Shown here in pieces: positions 533 to 6,975 of a DNA stretch of 14,407 nucleotides. The notes below the pieces were generated by a model. It ran no database searches. It was not told where the DNA came from and saw only the letters and a program-made list of their open reading frames with translations. Where the stretch lies: the NCBI GenBank assembly GCA_028287415.1, contig JAQBPS010000772.1, positions 1 to 14,407 of the forward strand. Reading direction: 5' to 3'. Position numbers and translations under genes: made by a program. Position 1 is the first letter of the stretch. The number at the start of each line of letters is the position of its first letter. This DNA is from Bacillota bacterium (GTDB lineage: Bacteria; Bacillota; Sulfobacillia; Symbiobacteriales; Symbiobacteriaceae).

Positions 533-976
533 CTACTCCATGCGGTTCATGGCCGGATCCGGGAAACGGTGATAGCGGGTCTCCCCGCCCTGGAGCCAGT
601 GCGTCAGGGGCTCCAGCCAGGGGCGCCAGCGGATGTACTCGCCCACCTGCGCCACCGGCACCCACTTCACGCCATAGATCTCGCCGGGCCGTGGAAACAG
701 CGTGCCCCCGGTCGGCCGGGCCGAAAAGAAGAACTGGACCAGATGCTCCCGGGCATCCATATTCCGAAACTCCGTAATAAACGCCAGGTCCCCGACTTCC
801 ACCAGGAGTCCCGTCTCCTCAAGCACTTCGCGCACAGCGGTCTCCGCGAGCAGTTCACCGGCCTCCCAGTGTCCTTTCGGAAGCCCCCAGTGCCCGTTGC
901 GGTTACGGATCAGCAGAATGTAGCCATCCTCCAGGACCAGACCGCCGGCTGAGAGATGTCTCCGCAGATGTAGCAT
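533..976 (-). CDS. NUDIX hydrolase (MutT/Ap4A-hydrolase-like)
   Basis: A 147-residue protein with a complete NUDIX box: G35, five residues, E41, seven residues, then REVLEETG (49-56). The three metal-binding glutamates of the REUxEE core are intact, so it should be an active Mg-dependent pyrophosphatase of nucleoside-diphosphate-linked substrates; the exact substrate cannot be read from sequence. The opening LSAGGLVLEDG and WGLPKGHWE are typical of the Ap4A-hydrolase/MutT-like type. I chose ATG at 976 because AGAGG lies 7 bases upstream; an in-frame GTG at 982 sits too close to that site. A good sigma-A-like promoter lies upstream at 1015-1044. It is followed by the hrpB start after 33 bases, which suggests a two-gene operon. 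Confidence 0.92.
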   Translation of the reverse strand: MLHLRRHLSAGGLVLEDGYILLIRNRNGHWGLPKGHWEAGELLAETAVREVLEETGLLVEVGDLAFITEFRNMDAREHLVQFFFSARPTGGTLFPRPGEIYGVKWVPVAQVGEYIRWRPWLEPLTHWLQGGETRYHRFPDPAMNRME

Positions 977-1014
977 AACCACACCTCTATCTTGTAAAGG
1001 TCCTCATGTTACAT

Positions 1015-1132: not shown

Positions 1133-4100
1133 TTGCAAGACCTGTTCATCATTGATGTAACCCGCGGCTTTCTGCCGGCGGCCCTGCTGACAGCGGCGGC
1201 TTATGCGCGCACTGGCGGCGAGGCGATGCTCGTCCAGGGCAGCGCCGACCATGCGTCGGTCCATCAGGCTGTGGAGCGGTTCCGCCCTGCCCGCCTGCTG
1301 ACGATGGCCGGTTGTGCGCCCGAGATCGCCATAGGGCGCGGCGGCGATGACCGCCTGGCGCAGGAGACGCTCCCTGCCGAGAGCGCCCCGCTTCTGTCCT
1401 GGCTGATCAATGAGGCCGTGGCGGAGGCCCGGGGCGTCGTGTTGTTCCCGGCCCACTCGCCGTCCTGGGCGATCAAGGGCGCAGCCCTGGCGACCCGGCT
1501 CGGCTACCTCGCCTGGCCCCTGGAGGAGACGTCGGGCTTTGCCTATGCCGCCCCGGCGGAGATTCCCGTGCTCGTGCTCGGCGAGGCAATGGTCGGCCTG
1601 GGCGAGAAGCTGCAAGGACGGGAATTCCGGCATCTGCCGGGCGATCACGCCGTGGCCGACTACCTGGCGGAGATTGGCAAGCCCGCCCGCTATGTCGTGC
1701 TGGTCAACTCGGCCGACTTGGAGCCGCCGCCGTCGACCGGGGTGAGCATGGGCACCGCCTGGGTGCGGGGCCTTAGCCTGCTTGCGCCCCAGCTTGCATC
1801 CTACCGGGAAGCGCTGGTGCTCGACGCCCACTCCTCCCGCCCCGAGCCGCACGAGATTGAGCGCACGCTTAACCAGCGGGTGCACGAGGCGCGCCTGGCC
1901 CCGGAGTACCTGGCCGTGCTGGCGGCACCGGGCGCCATCCCGTTTATCGCTGATGCGGACATGCGCTTTCCGCCTGACGAGGACGCAACCCGGGAGCTCC
2001 ACTTGCGGCTGAACAACGACCTCTTTTTTGATGTCGCCGAGGGGCGCATTTTCGGCCAGACCGCTGGCAAGGTCAGCCTCCAGCTCCTGTCGACGAAGCA
2101 CCATGCGCAGCTTCACGGCGCTTTCCGCTCCCGGGCGCTGATCTTCAGTCGACCGCACGTGGAGGGCGGCGTCACCTTCGCACTGGATGAGGCCGTGGGT
2201 CGGACCCAGTTGCGGCCGGTGCTGGAAAAGGCCGGACTCAGCGTGACCGAGCTCTACGATCAGGACTGCTCTCCGCGCCAGATCGCAGAGCATTTGCCGG
2301 GCGCCGGCCTGATGATGTACGCCGGCCATGGCCATCCTGAGGCCCTGGCGACCCACGAGGCCCCGCTCTATGCGGAGTTTCTGCCGGAGCAGATCGCCCC
2401 CGGCGTCGTGTACGCGTGCGCTTGCTCAACGATGTACCCCAAGCCTGTCCGGTTCAGCAGCGACGGCGGTTTCAGTGCGGAGGAGGAGGCGACGCCCTTC
2501 GCCGAGCAGATCGGCCCGGCCTTTGTTGACCGGGGCGCTCTGGCCTTTGTCGGCGGCCTCACCGCTGAAGATGTGCTGCTGAATACGCCGATGTACGTTG
2601 CCTTCATGCACGCGCTTGTGCTGAAGGGGCTGAGCGTGGGCCAGGCCGTGCGCTATGCCCGCAACCACACGCTCACCCACATGGCAGTGATGAGCCAGCG
2701 GGCGCCCGCCACCTACAACGCCTACCGGGAGACGGTCGCCGAAGCCGTTCAGCAACAGGTGCTCCTGGGCGATCCGGCCTTCCAGCCTTACCCGGGCACG
2801 GCGGCCGCCAGGCTGCCGGTTGCGGCCGCCGCGGCGGGCGATGAGGCGGTCTCGGTCACGCTGAGCCTGCCGGAGGAGCGCTGGCTGCGCACAACCGTCA
2901 AGGTCGATGAGGGCAAGCAGAACAAGGACTTCCATCGGGCACGCAGCCTGGAAGCGTGGCTGCCGGTCGGCGAGGATGTCTTCAACTGGGGCGAGAACTA
3001 CACGGTCGCAAAGGCTGCCGACGGTGCGGCCGACAAGGGCGTGATGGGCGCGTACGTGCGCCTCAGCGCCGACCTGCCGGCAGGGCGGGTGCCGGTCTCG
3101 CTGACGCTCGAGAGCGTAGCGGTGGGACCGCAGGAGTGCCTGCTCTGCGGCACTAGTCACCCGGTCGCCGACGCCGCCGCAAAGTTCAGCAAGCATGTGA
3201 TTCCCTTTATGGGGAAGGAGGCCCCCGTCGCGCACGACCAGCGCAAGGGCTGGGCGTTTGCCACGGAGGAGACCCCGACCGGGCTGCGGGTGCATTGGCT
3301 CGTGCCCGCGTTGGTGATCGATGATGCGACCCGCCAGGCGATCCGCCTCGAGAGCGCTACGTTCCGGCTCGAGCACCGGCCGGGCGTGCTGGCGCAGGGG
3401 CGGCTCGATCTGGAGCGCAACGGCGGCGGCGGCGGGACAGAGGCGCCGGGCGCCATGGAGGGTACCCGGGGGCTGCTGCCGGACGACCTTCTGCTCTCGT
3501 TCGGCCCGGTGCAGGCCGCCGACGCTGCCGACGATGCGCAGGCCCAGCCCGCGGACAGCAAGGCGAAGCAGCTTTCGGTGATCGCCCAGACGCTCTCCAG
3601 CCCTGGCGGCCACTGGTCCTGCTGGCTGCCGACCGGCGCTGAGGTCGGCCTGCGAGTCGATACGCCCATGCCGGTCTACCGCCACGTACCCGAGGCGCCG
3701 CTGAGCTATGCCCCGGCTACCGTGACGGACATCGCGGCGCCCTTGAAGGCCCCGAATACCGGCACCGTGCGGGGCACCGTGGTCGACGGCTTCACCGGGC
3801 GGCCGCTGCCCGGCGCCCGGGTCCGCCTGTGGCGGGGCAAGGCTGGCGACCGCACGGTGTTTGAGGGCTTCGTGGGCGAGGCCCGGGCCGATGCCCAGGG
3901 GCACTTCGCGTTCACCGTTCCGGTCGGCAGCTACGTGGTGCGTACGGCGCATCGCACCGACTTGCGGTACTTTGCCGGCAAGGGCAGCGTTACGGTGTTC
4001 AAGGGCCGGGATGCCGCAGTGCTCGTGCCGATGGAGCCAGGCGCCCTGCTCACCGGCCGGGTGGAGTGGGCCGGCCCATACCGGCCGAAGCACGCGGGCA

Positions 4101-4315
4101 TCAAGCTGCTGGAGCACGGCAGCAAGGACGAGGTGCTGGGCTTCGGGAGCATCCGCCGGGATGGCGGCTTTGCCGTGCTCGTGCCCGTGACCAGGCCGTT
4201 CGACGTGCAGATCTGGCCGGAGGGCTTCGATCGCCTGCTGGACGACAACGGCGGGGAGGGCTACCACCTGGCGCCAGGGGATGTCCTGACGAAGTCGTAC
4301 ACCGTCAAGGGGTAG
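1133..4315 (+). CDS. Large gingipain-like (C25/caspase-fold) peptidase with C-terminal carboxypeptidase-regulatory-like domain
   Basis: A 1060-residue protein starting at TTG behind AGGAGGG. Residues about 170-555 resemble the C25 (gingipain) fold. EYLAVLAAPGAIPF and VAEGRIFGQTAGKVSLQLL match the usual lead-in. The catalytic region follows, with the His motif MYAGHGH (H399, H401) and the Cys motif VVYACACST (C429, C431). The C25-typical ending VLLGDPAFQPYPG closes it. By alignment with CHAT/C25 motifs, H399 and C431 are my best dyad. Residues 1-170 look like alternating strand/helix repeats somewhat like cell-wall-binding type 2 units (weak). Residues 560-870 are unrecognised, with a CLLC pair (669-672) and a Gly run near 765. 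Residues about 876-968 form a carboxypeptidase-regulatory-like beta-sandwich (GTVRGTVVDGFTGRPLPGARV). No signal peptide, sorting signal or membrane segment is visible, which is odd for this family. It stands alone, with only the broken NUDIX remnant behind it. Confidence 0.72.
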   Translation: MQDLFIIDVTRGFLPAALLTAAAYARTGGEAMLVQGSADHASVHQAVERFRPARLLTMAGCAPEIAIGRGGDDRLAQETLPAESAPLLSWLINEAVAEARGVVLFPAHSPSWAIKGAALATRLGYLAWPLEETSGFAYAAPAEIPVLVLGEAMVGLGEKLQGREFRHLPGDHAVADYLAEIGKPARYVVLVNSADLEPPPSTGVSMGTAWVRGLSLLAPQLASYREALVLDAHSSRPEPHEIERTLNQRVHEARLAPEYLAVLAAPGAIPFIADADMRFPPDEDATRELHLRLNNDLFFDVAEGRIFGQTAGKVSLQLLSTKHHAQLHGAFRSRALIFSRPHVEGGVTFALDEAVGRTQLRPVLEKAGLSVTELYDQDCSPRQIAEHLPGAGLMMYAGHGHPEALATHEAPLYAEFLPEQIAPGVVYACACSTMYPKPVRFSSDGGFSAEEEATPFAEQIGPAFVDRGALAFVGGLTAEDVLLNTPMYVAFMHALVLKGLSVGQAVRYARNHTLTHMAVMSQRAPATYNAYRETVAEAVQQQVLLGDPAFQPYPGTAAARLPVAAAAAGDEAVSVTLSLPEERWLRTTVKVDEGKQNKDFHRARSLEAWLPVGEDVFNWGENYTVAKAADGAADKGVMGAYVRLSADLPAGRVPVSLTLESVAVGPQECLLCGTSHPVADAAAKFSKHVIPFMGKEAPVAHDQRKGWAFATEETPTGLRVHWLVPALVIDDATRQAIRLESATFRLEHRPGVLAQGRLDLERNGGGGGTEAPGAMEGTRGLLPDDLLLSFGPVQAADAADDAQAQPADSKAKQLSVIAQTLSSPGGHWSCWLPTGAEVGLRVDTPMPVYRHVPEAPLSYAPATVTDIAAPLKAPNTGTVRGTVVDGFTGRPLPGARVRLWRGKAGDRTVFEGFVGEARADAQGHFAFTVPVGSYVVRTAHRTDLRYFAGKGSVTVFKGRDAAVLVPMEPGALLTGRVEWAGPYRPKHAGIKLLEHGSKDEVLGFGSIRRDGGFAVLVPVTRPFDVQIWPEGFDRLLDDNGGEGYHLAPGDVLTKSYTVKG

Positions 4316-4320
4316 GCGGA

Positions 4321-4540
4321 ATGGTGTACACAGTCAAGGAGAAGGTTCTTCCCGGAGGGCGGTACCCAGGTGCCCGCGGGCACCATGGAGCCCGGTGAGG
4401 CCCCCGAGCACGCCGTCCTGCGCAAGGTATTCGAGGAGTCGGGGCTGACCGGCCCGGCCATCACCAGCTACGTTGGCTGCTTTGCGTATGACAAGGCGCT
4501 CGGAATATCCGAGCGCCTTTCCTCACCATATGACTATTGA
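4321..4540 (+). pseudogene. Broken NUDIX hydrolase remnant (frameshift plus internal and 3' deletion)
   Basis: An opening MVYTVKEKVL (ATG at 4321, AGGCGGA just upstream) looks like the start of a NUDIX hydrolase, but its frame soon diverges and stops at 4398. From 4361, in a different frame, the sequence reads GTQVPAGTMEPGEAPEH and then VLRKVFEESGL. This is a NUDIX box with the usual GTxVPxGTxEPGE lead-in and one core change (RK instead of RE). About 20-25 residues normally found between the opening and this motif are missing. The second frame ends soon after SYVGCFAYDK, where a hairpin begins, so the C-terminal half is gone as well. It is unrelated in detail to the intact NUDIX gene at 533-976. 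I infer a decayed gene cut by a rearrangement next to the TPR cassettes. Confidence 0.75.
4493..4519 (+). terminator. Hairpin, probable terminator
   Basis: A perfect 12-base-pair stem (AAGGCGCTCGGA / TCCGAGCGCCTT) with a 3-base loop, followed by TCCTCACC, which is only weakly T-rich. It sits inside the broken NUDIX frame and just before the promoter of the first TPR gene, so it would separate the peptidase transcript from the TPR cassette. Confidence 0.65.
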
Positions 4541-4543
4541 TAC

Positions 4544-4572
4544 TTGATTAATAATTTCTATATAGTTATGAT
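4544..4572 (+). promoter_or_regulatory. Sigma-A-type promoter for TPR/peptide cassette 1
   Basis: TTGATT (4544-4549), a 17-base spacer, TATGAT (4567-4572), in an AT-rich patch that contrasts with the GC-rich surroundings. Predicted transcription starts near 4579. The coding start must therefore be downstream, which supports TTG at 4610 over earlier in-frame starts. Confidence 0.65.
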
Positions 4573-4609
4573 ATTCATGTACTACCGCATCCGGGAAGGG
4601 GGTATACCA

Positions 4610-5518
4610 TTGCCGCTCGCTGATTTCAAAGCGGCCGTCCAGGCAGAGCAATATCAGACTGCACGGTGGTTGTTTGTGCAATTAAGGGACGACCCCCTCG
4701 TTTCCCGGGAAGAATTGGCCGAAGCATACTGCGAGGCGGCGGTCGTGGAGTATCGGGCCGGTCATCTGCGCACTGCCATTGCTTGGGCCAAGGTGGCGAT
4801 CAAGATGGCCATGGCCCCCGAAACAAACCAGCTGATGCTTCTGAGTCGTACCGCTCTGAACCTGATTGAGTTTCAACGACTGGCAGGGGATACAGCTGCT
4901 GCGATTGACACCGGTCACCACTGGCTTACGCATTACGGGGACAACCGCGAAGTAGCGCACCGAAAGGGCCGGTTCTACTTCAATCTGGCGGTTACTCATC
5001 AGCAGCGGGAAGAAGTCGAGAAGGCTCTCGAACACTACGAGCTGGCGTGGAATCACCTTGCCGGTGTCCGTTCGAGCCATCCAGACGCGTCGGAGCGGGA
5101 ACGAAGCCTTGTGTACGAAGTGATGGCGCTTCAGAACTCGGCCTGGCTTATGTACGAGGTTGACCTTGGGGTCGCGAAAGAGATTGCGGGAAAAGCTCGG
5201 CGGTTGATTCCAGAGGGGAACTCACTCCTTGCTCGTGAACAGATGCTGCTCGAAGCCCTTGAAATACATAAGTGCGGCGACTCGGTCTCCGTCCTCGCCT
5301 TAGTGAACCGGATCTTCGCCAATGCGACTGCGATTCCAACCCGTCAACTGTTCTGGCTCTACTGGCTGGCCGCCAAAGAACTGGTCCGTTGCGGGAAGAT
5401 GAGCACCGCTAACGCGTATGCCGCTATGGCAACGCAGGCGGCCGAGGATGCGAAGGACAGGCGCCTCATTCGACTCGGACGTGAGGTCGAAGAGGAGACC
5501 GATGGGGTTGCCTCGTAG
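4610..5518 (+). CDS. TPR protein, candidate Rap-like peptide receptor of cassette 1
   Basis: A 302-residue, all-helical protein without signal peptide or membrane segment. TPR-type helix pairs are clearest at about residues 118-150 (FYFNLAVTHQQREEVEKALE, then HYELAWNHL) and earlier around TAIAWAKVAIKMA (about 55-67). The C-terminal part continues as helix pairs. No helix-turn-helix is evident at the N-terminus. I chose TTG at 4610 because GAAGGGGG lies 7 bases upstream and the promoter at 4544-4572 excludes longer forms. A 45-residue exported peptide gene begins 37 bases after its stop. By analogy with Rap-Phr and other RRNPP systems, I infer that it binds the imported peptide and alters a protein partner; no partner is visible here. 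Its codon use is more AT-tolerant than that of its neighbours, which hints at an accessory origin. Confidence 0.8.
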   Translation: MPLADFKAAVQAEQYQTARWLFVQLRDDPLVSREELAEAYCEAAVVEYRAGHLRTAIAWAKVAIKMAMAPETNQLMLLSRTALNLIEFQRLAGDTAAAIDTGHHWLTHYGDNREVAHRKGRFYFNLAVTHQQREEVEKALEHYELAWNHLAGVRSSHPDASERERSLVYEVMALQNSAWLMYEVDLGVAKEIAGKARRLIPEGNSLLAREQMLLEALEIHKCGDSVSVLALVNRIFANATAIPTRQLFWLYWLAAKELVRCGKMSTANAYAAMATQAAEDAKDRRLIRLGREVEEETDGVAS

Positions 5519-5555
5519 CCTCCAAATACTACAGGAACTCAGGGGGTGGACCATC

Positions 5556-5693
5556 ATGACGAGGTACCGGAAGGCGATCCTGATGCTTGCCATTGTGTCG
5601 GCGTTGCTGCTCGATGCAACAGTGACGTTCGCAGACCACGGAGGCATTGTCGAAGCCCAACCGTCAACGAGTTCGTCGCTCGCACCCTACTAG
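5556..5693 (+). CDS. Short secreted peptide precursor, candidate Phr-like signal of cassette 1
   Basis: A 45-residue product from ATG at 5556, with AGGGGGTGG 7 bases upstream. It has a textbook Sec signal peptide: basic MTRYRK, hydrophobic AILMLAIVSALLL, and a likely cleavage after VTFA (residue 26). This leaves the 19-residue DHGGIVEAQPSTSSSLAPY. The gene lies 37 bases behind the TPR gene and surely shares its transcript; no separate promoter is clear in the gap. The signal peptide, position and size fit a pro-peptide that is exported, trimmed and re-imported. The active peptide cannot be read from sequence; the C-terminal residues are the usual candidate. An open reading frame in another phase continues to 5764, so an old frameshift is possible. 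Confidence 0.7.
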   Translation: MTRYRKAILMLAIVSALLLDATVTFADHGGIVEAQPSTSSSLAPY

Positions 5694-5761
5694 CTGAGGG
5701 ACCCGCCTGCATCGACAAGATAACGCTGATCGCTCGACCCGAGGACCCTTACATTTACCCG

Positions 5762-5805
5762 TAACAAAGGCCAGGTGGCTGCATGACAGCACCTGGCCTT
5801 TGTTA
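5762..5805. terminator. Bidirectional terminator shared by the two convergent cassettes
   Basis: A perfect 16-base-pair inverted repeat (TAACAAAGGCCAGGTG / CACCTGGCCTTTGTTA) around a 12-base loop. The loop can add three more pairs (CTG/CAG) with one bulged G. The outer stem gives T-rich ends in both directions. It lies between the peptide 1 stop (5693) and the peptide 2 stop (5820), so it should end both transcripts. Confidence 0.85.
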
Positions 5806-5819
5806 TGGGGCATTACCAC

Positions 5820-5957
5820 CTACGGCTGTATGATCGCGCTCTGCGAGTGAGTCCAAGCCTTCCACGGCTCGATGACACCGCCGCCTTGTGCCGACACGGT
5901 TGCTGCCATGGCCGCTAACGCGAGGATGACCAGAACCAGGCCCATAACCTTCCGCAT
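5820..5957 (-). CDS. Short secreted peptide precursor, candidate Phr-like signal of cassette 2
   Basis: A 45-residue product from ATG at 5957, with GGAGGGG 5 bases upstream. A clear Sec signal peptide runs from MRK through the hydrophobic VMGLVLVILALAAMAA to a strong cleavage site after TVSA (residue 23). The 22-residue remainder starts QGGGVIEPWKAW and ends SAIIQP. It follows the TPR gene of cassette 2 by 57 bases. Its length equals that of peptide 1, and the motif GG-V-I-E right after cleavage mirrors GG-I-V-E in peptide 1, so the two look like diverged copies. No cysteine is present, and no lanthipeptide or bacteriocin hallmark is seen. Such short genes are easily missed by annotation pipelines. 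Confidence 0.72.
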   Translation of the reverse strand: MRKVMGLVLVILALAAMAATVSAQGGGVIEPWKAWTHSQSAIIQP

Positions 5958-6014
5958 GCAGACCCCTCCATTTTACCTGAGAGATAAAACCTTTTCTTGG
6001 AAGAGGGGGCGGAT

Positions 6015-6902
6015 TTACGCCCCCTGCCTCTGTTCCTGTATCACCTGTGTAATGTGGTGGCGGACTCGTTTGGCGGTGGTCCAGCATCGGAGGTCTACCC
6101 CAGGCATGCTGGCTTCTACGAATGCCCGATAAATTATATGCTCGGAAGCGGCAATCATCCCTGGGTCGGTGTACCGCATCCCAATCGCGGCCAGGGCCAT
6201 CACGGACAGGCCGAGGATGAACGCACTGCTGCCGTCCTCACGGTGGATCACTGACTGCAACGTGTCCAGACAGCGGGCGCAATCCCCGGCGGCCAGGAGC
6301 TGGTATGCATTCATCACCTGCTGCATCGCCCTGTCTGACTCCGTAGCGCACAAGGGCGCCGCTTCATCAATCAGGTCTGCCGCCCGGTCGGGCTGATTCA
6401 GATCGCACAAGGTCCAGGCCAAGTTCCACAGAGAGAGGAGCAGGTGCTTCTTCAGGCCTTCACGGCGCAACTCCGCCACCGCTCGTTCGTAGTAGGCGGC
6501 GGCCTGGCGCAGGTTTTCCGGCTTGCCGTTGCGGTTATAGTACGCCAGCCCCAGATTATGTAGGAGCGGTCCGGTCAGGACGCCAGCCAGACTCGGGTGC
6601 TCAGGTAACTCGGCCAGACACGCTTCGAGATGCTCGATTGCCTCGCCGTAGGCGCCCAGTTGCTCCTCAGTACTGCCGAGACGCTGGAGGAGCTTGATGC
6701 GAATCTCCCCGGATGGCTTCAAGGACAGGCCGTACTCGGCCGCCCCCCGAGACCGTAGATACTCCTCAAGATGCCAGTACACCAGCGACCCCAGCCAGTA
6801 CCATTCCGGATCCGTGCAGCCTGGTTGCCCTTGGTATAATGCCCGCGCCTCGGCCAACCGCCGCTCCTGGTACAAGGCGCGTAACTCCGTCAATCGATCC
6901 AC
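6015..6902 (-). CDS. TPR protein, candidate Rap-like peptide receptor of cassette 2
   Basis: A 295-residue helical protein with no signal peptide or membrane segment. TPR-like helix pairs are visible at about residues 71-100 (LGSTEEQLGAYGEAIEHLEA), 113-146 (LLHNLGLAYYNRNG, then AAAYYERAVAEL) and 155-184 (LWNLAWTLCDLNQPDRAADL). No helix-turn-helix is evident. The start is GTG at 6902 with a GGGGGG tract 8 bases upstream; an ATG at 6910 is in another frame and hits a stop at once. It matches the first TPR protein in size, layout and following peptide gene, but residue identity by eye is low, so the receptors have diverged strongly or were acquired separately. I infer a cytosolic peptide receptor; its target is unknown. 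Confidence 0.8.
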   Translation of the reverse strand: MDRLTELRALYQERRLAEARALYQGQPGCTDPEWYWLGSLVYWHLEEYLRSRGAAEYGLSLKPSGEIRIKLLQRLGSTEEQLGAYGEAIEHLEACLAELPEHPSLAGVLTGPLLHNLGLAYYNRNGKPENLRQAAAYYERAVAELRREGLKKHLLLSLWNLAWTLCDLNQPDRAADLIDEAAPLCATESDRAMQQVMNAYQLLAAGDCARCLDTLQSVIHREDGSSAFILGLSVMALAAIGMRYTDPGMIAASEHIIYRAFVEASMPGVDLRCWTTAKRVRHHITQVIQEQRQGA

Positions 6903-6946
6903 GTGGCCATCCCCCCACTGTCCAAGCCATGAAGTGGTTCGCTATC

Positions 6947-6975
6947 AGTGTACTTAGAATTCGCCTGGAAAACAA
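6947..6975 (-). promoter_or_regulatory. Weak candidate promoter for cassette 2
   Basis: On the minus strand TTGTTT (6975-6970), 17 bases, TACACT (6952-6947), about 45 bases before the GTG start. Matches are 3 and 4 of 6. An overlapping alternative, TTGGTA with TCTAAG, is equally weak. The region is AT-rich compared with its flanks, which is the main support. Confidence 0.25.

Follow-up and report, generated by a model that had tools for sequence, protein, structure and literature searches.

RRNPPA pheromone receptors are described as proteins of 250-500 residues containing tetratricopeptide repeats (TPRs), and the criterion published for their propeptides is an adjacent Sec-type open reading frame (ORF) of 10-100 residues at -60 to 400 bp (PMC10075063). 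The known receptors are reported to signal onward via an N-terminal portion whose target is DNA or a protein (PMC11343458). The family is outlined as a five-TPR core with an optional helix-turn-helix (HTH) and four optional further TPRs, with Rap and subfamily 17 described as having arisen through HTH loss (PMC12700828). In the structural account of Rap, a three-helix bundle (residues 1-70) and a linker (71-94), both of which take part in target binding, precede the TPR domain (95-373) (PMC3601965). Here we describe two converging cassettes, each a TPR protein gene followed by a short signal-peptide ORF, between positions 4610 and 6902 of a 14,407-nucleotide stretch of DNA (the window; contig JAQBPS010000772.1) from a Bacillota bacterium of the Symbiobacteriaceae. 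These cassettes are best interpreted as an RRNPP-like pheromone system, found in the Symbiobacterium lineage, whose short receptors apparently lack an effector part, and they seem to represent a branch of bacterial peptide signaling that has received little study.

The Symbiobacterium lineage is known for its dependence on co-culture, and the same account of a growth factor of S. toebii argues against a quorum character (PMC3208422). The literature search found no paper joining RRNPP systems with Symbiobacterium, and the string "Symbiobacter" is absent from the main texts of PMC10075063, PMC9765709 and PMC12700828; the supplementary tables of RRNPP_detector may list some pairs.

Results

Two Converging Cassettes of a Predicted Receptor and Precursor

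The two units are arranged in the order TPR1 (+), pep1 (+), hairpin, pep2 (-), TPR2 (-). TPR1 (4610-5518, + strand) and TPR2 (6015-6902, - strand, start GTG 6902) are predicted TPR peptide receptors of 302 and 295 residues, inside the RRNPPA length range, and are followed after 37 and 57 bases, respectively, by the 45-residue, ATG-initiated precursors pep1 (5556-5693, +) and pep2 (5820-5957, -). The convergent layout proposed from the sequence alone, with a TPR protein of ~300 residues and a 45-codon signal-peptide ORF at these two distances, was thereby confirmed. Signal peptides were judged by eye and with a home-made hydropathy/cleavage filter rather than with SignalP; with export assessed by that hydropathy filter, both precursors lie inside the RRNPPA propeptide criterion. 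With cleavage sites placed by eye, pep1 comprises a predicted signal peptide (5556-5633) and the mature part DHGGIVEAQPSTSSSLAPY (5634-5690), and pep2 a predicted signal peptide (5957-5889) and the mature part QGGGVIEPWKAWTHSQSAIIQP (5888-5823).

Both precursors have database homologues, P0018 for pep1 (89% identical) and P0015 and P0016 for pep2 (82%). A 3710-base contig is given for P0015 and for the TPR1 homologue P0003, and a 1704-base contig for P0018 and for the TPR2 homologue P0009. Given that precursor homologues and homologues of the opposite receptor are found on such contigs, the convergent arrangement itself seems to be conserved.

Recurrence of the Pairing in Related Genomes

Profile searches covered 154 genomes of the class, 398 of the phylum and 8 of the order, with every candidate scored in the order and at most six per genome in the phylum. 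The 45 matches in the order were reduced by six, namely five proteins longer than 400 residues (G006:C74, G004:C70, G002:C143, G007 and G002:C63) and one 84-residue piece at a contig end, and L055 was added from the class search to give a set of 40 family TPR genes. The home-made filter revealed a short signal-peptide ORF 3′ of 22 of 30 family genes. The corresponding figures were 3 of 106 for the remaining ORFs of those loci and 190 of 4000 for positions picked at random; one of the three control positives among the ORFs (L062) follows another TPR protein of 874 residues. Ten further loci comprised five with such an ORF, four without and one undecidable at a contig end. In total, 27 of 40 family TPR genes, from seven of the eight order genomes, have a signal-peptide ORF, one of them (L058) being a truncated precursor; a 183-residue neighbour in L104 was not counted, and the eighth genome yielded one weak match of 456 residues that lies outside the 40-gene count. 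When the analysis was rerun with automatic selection, the values were 24 of 34 family genes and 2 of 138 other ORFs, controls near contig ends having been left out of both control counts.

In the midpoint-rooted tree (support for the main split, 82/98), both window rows are long-branched and several deep forks are open; 16 of the 18 rows on the window side have a signal-peptide ORF. Up to nine recognized cassettes occur in one genome (G002), and the window genome, 4.1 Mb in size and 78% complete, yielded 11 family matches, six with a readable precursor. Rows without a signal-peptide ORF include tandem TPR pairs and several single genes. At L044 and L049:2692-4774, tandem related TPR pairs were present with no precursor detected; these are possibly listeners without a signal, or proteins of another function.

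In the phylum search, 73 of the 398 genomes matched; in the class, phylum and order searches alike, scores above 60 bits were confined to the order of the window. Weaker matches beyond the order, some in frames of 250-400 residues around which signal-peptide ORFs were not checked, make a wider spread possible. Queries with TPR1 homologues revealed no relatives in the viral contig collection, the phage collection being outside the search, and tblastn with TPR2 revealed none in plasmids.

Coding Selection and a Recurrent Core in the Precursors

The ratio of nonsynonymous to synonymous substitution rates (dN/dS) was 0.21, 0.59 and 0.25 in three ortholog pairs of precursors; a fourth pair was left out because its L058 copy is truncated. 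By this measure the short ORFs evolve as coding genes. Synonymous and nonsynonymous differences numbered 21.5 and 10.5 in the first 24 codons and 7 and 17 beyond, so that the export tag is conserved and the mature part changes faster, the pattern expected of signal specificity. At L058:1-172 in G004, the precursor is cut short by sequence unlike that of its G001 counterpart; an ORF there resembles the start of a transposase, and the interruption is presumably due to an insertion element.

Many mature parts carry a recurring core soon after the predicted cleavage site, seen as NG[TPS]IWP, NGTV, GGVIE and IGGVGVKS. The individual instances are NGTIWP (L009), NGPIWP (twice), NGTV (twice), GGITP, IGGVGVKS (twice), GGIVE in pep1 and GGVIE in pep2, and a single precursor at L003:2389-2583 contains two copies, NGTIWP and NGSIWP (followed by F). 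Motifs were counted in 16 window-side precursors, a test set that leaves out the Cys-bounded precursors and four belonging to the opposite side of the tree. Eleven of the 16 contain G-x-[IV] (shuffle mean, 3.4), and six contain G-x-[IV]-x-P (shuffle mean, 0.27). An NGxIWP pattern applied to the DNA of the eight genomes gave 10 matches versus 1 for a reversed-pattern control. Five lay inside four signal-peptide ORFs, all already known and all behind TPR genes, and the other five outside such ORFs; the pattern was dropped as an unbiased cassette finder.

Two divergent cassettes at G002:C296 (L006) encode receptors that are 36.9% identical (106/287) and precursors that differ around an identical eight-residue IGGVGVKS. 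A gene beside this pair, which we take to be threonine-aldolase-like, has a relative that also flanks a cassette (L002) in the window genome.

In a second class of precursor, the mature part has a single Cys early on and a second as its last residue (e.g. CNGGSGGPPPPPTGSKC and CTVSTWRTYGSC). This class was observed at L056, L059, L108, L109, L049:5705-6625 (coordinates of the TPR gene), L105 and L062, and its mature parts could possibly be disulfide-closed peptides encoded behind related TPR genes.

Domains and Modeled Fold of the Receptors

TPR2 scored above the curated Pfam cut-off for two TPR models. TPR1 exceeded no cut-off, its best match being TPR_2 at 21 bits with 27 needed, and its TPR nature therefore rests on weak TPR matches, the family profile and the structure model. 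Both receptors were modeled as TPR superhelices. Rap chains were the best bacterial structural matches by Z, the RapI TPR domain superposing on the models at 3.4-3.5 Å, and alignment of the receptor family with Rap in hhalign gave an E value of 2.3e-5 and a probability of 76, a comparison in which repeats can mimic homology. The backbone-contacting Asn of RNPP receptors (RapF Asn227) is kept at residue 134 of the TPR1 model and residue 116 of TPR2, and in 22 of 29 aligned rows.

In size the window receptors roughly equal the Rap TPR domain, and they appear to consist of little more than that peptide-binding domain, without an effector part. No HTH was matched by Pfam in either receptor or seen in the helices of the two models, and an HTH regulator was rejected in view of its absence among the 25 families listed of the 29 Pfam families matched by the 40 members. 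The sequence-only reading had called the receptors Rap-like proteins acting through other proteins. The lack of an HTH agrees with that claim; the receptors are, on the other hand, ~70 residues shorter than Rap, and a search for RapH_N (PF18801) at E 0.001 was negative in all eight order genomes, under conditions in which the control was positive in Bacillus subtilis and also in M. jannaschii.

Other Elements and Neighboring Genes

The start of TPR1 is most likely TTG 4610 rather than the listed TTG 4544, because six database homologues (P0003-P0008) have the equivalent start, AGGGGG lies immediately upstream, and TTG 4544 falls within a promoter-like site; ATG 4577 is a further alternative. 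That site (TTGATA-18-TATAGT, 4537-4566, +) is a consensus match only, one of two such matches compared with 1.0 expected in shuffles, and the promoter/terminator scan of the window gave nothing clearly above chance. Ribosome-binding-like sequences, read by eye, precede pep1 (AGGGGGTGG, 5541-5549, +) and pep2 (GGAGGGG, 5963-5969, -).

An inverted repeat with 20-nucleotide arms that are 95% complementary (5758-5777/5790-5809) forms a hairpin common to both cassettes (5758-5809, both strands). Its folding energy is -42.4 kcal/mol (z, -7.4) on one strand and -40.0 kcal/mol (z, -8.0) on the other. Because the simple terminator scan missed this strong hairpin, we infer rather than assert that it is a probable two-way terminator.

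Adjoining the cassettes, positions 1133-4315 (+) encode a 1060-residue protein with Peptidase_C25 (gingipain-type family) and carboxypeptidase-regulatory-like domains. Between this C25-like protein and TPR1, a truncated NUDIX domain at 4370-4540 (+; Pfam E value, 2.9e-8; profile positions 33-72 of 134) is, from its sequence, a gene remnant, and a full NUDIX gene lies at 533-982 (-).

Discussion

The RRNPP-like interpretation is supported by the recurrence of the layout, the coding selection on the short ORFs and the match of the receptors to the Rap TPR fold, and the receptor/exported-propeptide layout originally proposed has held up over related genomes. We consider it probable that each cassette is a self-contained peptide-signaling unit whose exported peptide is re-imported and bound by the TPR protein. 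In the model proposed from the layout, the coding selection, the recurrent core, the TPR fold with its Asn and the many binding proteins of the oligopeptide permease type, the TPR gene and short ORF would be co-transcribed, and Sec would export the precursor, which would be cleaved behind an A-x-A-like site. The product would be a short linear peptide with the core near its new N terminus (GGIVE.. from pep1, GGVIEPW.. from pep2). Re-import would proceed through an oligopeptide permease; SBP_bac_5 gave 50 matches, some of them fragments, in the window genome versus 6-17 in the seven other order genomes. The peptide would then be bound in extended form on the concave TPR face, altering what the TPR protein binds. 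Because the receptors appear to be a TPR domain alone, the output would have to come from the superhelix itself, by partner binding or oligomerization, rather than being supplied by an HTH or a Rap bundle. With their GGIVE and GGVIE cores, the two window signals could possibly cross-talk, a notion that would be better founded in the divergent pair at G002:C296, in which both precursors carry IGGVGVKS.

Several observations weigh against signaling by these cassettes. Conserved TPR genes without short ORFs, which the sequence-only reading had named as evidence to the contrary, do occur as a minority: 12 of the 40 family genes lack a signal-peptide ORF and one is undecidable, and two of the 12 (L051 and L055) are on the window side of the tree. 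Precursor homologues exist for some receptor homologues only (one foreign homologue for pep1, two for pep2), and none was found for the TPR1 homologues P0004-P0008 in a search that reaches close relatives only. Five of the 16 window-side precursors lack G-x-[IV], and the motif patterns were picked after the peptides had been seen. Most known pheromones occupy the C terminus of their precursor, but the core here sits close to the site of signal-peptide cleavage. Among structural matches, eukaryotic LGN had equal or higher Z values (23.7 and 23.0, at 4.9 and 5.9 Å) and partial LGN chains matched the models at 2.8 Å, TPR folds matching broadly; the conserved Asn is common among TPRs generally (PMC3601957). 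A read-through model of TPR2 and its precursor left the mature tail unplaced, with per-residue confidence (pLDDT) mostly below 50.

The strongest alternative, although an unlikely one, is that the exported peptide is itself an effector (antimicrobial, adhesion or spore-coat) and the TPR protein its cytosolic chaperone or regulator, with neither re-import nor signaling. The Cys-bounded mature parts at L056, L059, L108, L109 and L105, unlike known Phr pheromones, would suit such a role, and peptide import is the step that signaling has to assume. The window-side mature parts, by contrast, resemble those of pheromone precursors: they are ~10-29 residues long, their short core recurs, and in one case (L003) it is duplicated internally. 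The TPR domain matches the Rap, NprR and AimR receptors. A role of the short ORF as a hydrophobic toxin resembling type I toxins, or as a leader or attenuator peptide for the TPR operon, is highly improbable: the ORF is small, hydrophobic and beside a strong hairpin, but it lies 3′ rather than 5′ of the TPR gene, the precursors have recognizable cleavage sites and a recurrent post-cleavage core, and the hairpin is common to two converging units.

Slightly less credible again is genuine Rap-Phr membership, in which a Phr would inhibit its cognate Rap, a phosphatase or anti-activator. The receptor-then-propeptide layout and the rank of Rap chains among bacterial matches speak for such membership, and the alignment of some Rap chains already starts at residue 36-53, making an N-terminal remnant conceivable. 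In the structural alignment, however, RapI is matched from residue 101-104 onward, a register with which the pLS20 Rap sequence alignment agrees. Structurally, the register is not uniform: apo and target-bound Rap end opposite model residue 289-291, and compact peptide-bound Rap aligns one register off. The Asp-Arg anchor (RapF Asp194 with the Phr Arg) is not kept, the aligned column being mostly L, E or R and the recurrent cores containing no Arg. True Rap-Phr membership was rejected on the absence of RapH_N from all eight genomes, the sequence register and the missing anchor. Chance ORFs, for which only their shortness speaks, were rejected as next to impossible given both counts against their controls (22/30 versus 3/106 and 190/4000; 24/34 versus 2/138), dN/dS below 1 in the three measured pairs and the homologues of both window precursors.

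Receptors seemingly without the N-terminal part raise the question of how a bare peptide-binding superhelix signals. RRNPPA membership by descent is likely rather than established. A more far-reaching interpretation, which we hold only tentatively and as appreciably less likely than peptide signaling as such, is a deep separate branch of TPR-domain-only receptors, either an RRNPPA outgroup or an independent invention, with receptor sets that share a signal (IGGVGVKS) and a second, two-Cys peptide class. The ancestral TPR number is presented as open, and an outgroup as helpful, in the RRNPPA phylogeny (PMC12700828); the family described here is a candidate outgroup that, if true, could root the RRNPPA tree and bear on whether five or nine TPRs are ancestral. 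It would also provide the Symbiobacterium lineage with a peptide language open to testing, in which a single genome can have as many as nine recognized cassettes.

Compared with known systems, the cassettes share with NprR-NprX and AimR-AimP a TPR superhelix, an exported peptide and a pheromone that may sit inside the precursor, NprX being a named exception to the C-terminal rule (PMC10075063); those receptors differ from the window pair in having a nine-TPR fold and a DNA-binding HTH. An RRNPPA subfamily described as HTH-less, subfamily 17 of Anoxybacter fermentans (PMC12700828), is similar in that respect, but belongs to nine-TPR clan B; it is set apart from the window family by description, not by sequence. 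The closest parallel is Rap-Phr (RRNPPA clan B), with the same order of TPR receptor gene and Sec-type propeptide, no HTH, the RNPP Asn and a superposable TPR domain. It differs in its RapH_N domain and ~70 additional residues, in the anchoring Asp and Arg, in a core that is C-terminal rather than near the cleavage site, and in its lineage, the window family lying outside the Bacilli. On this reading, the system described here would work like Rap-Phr without being Rap-Phr.
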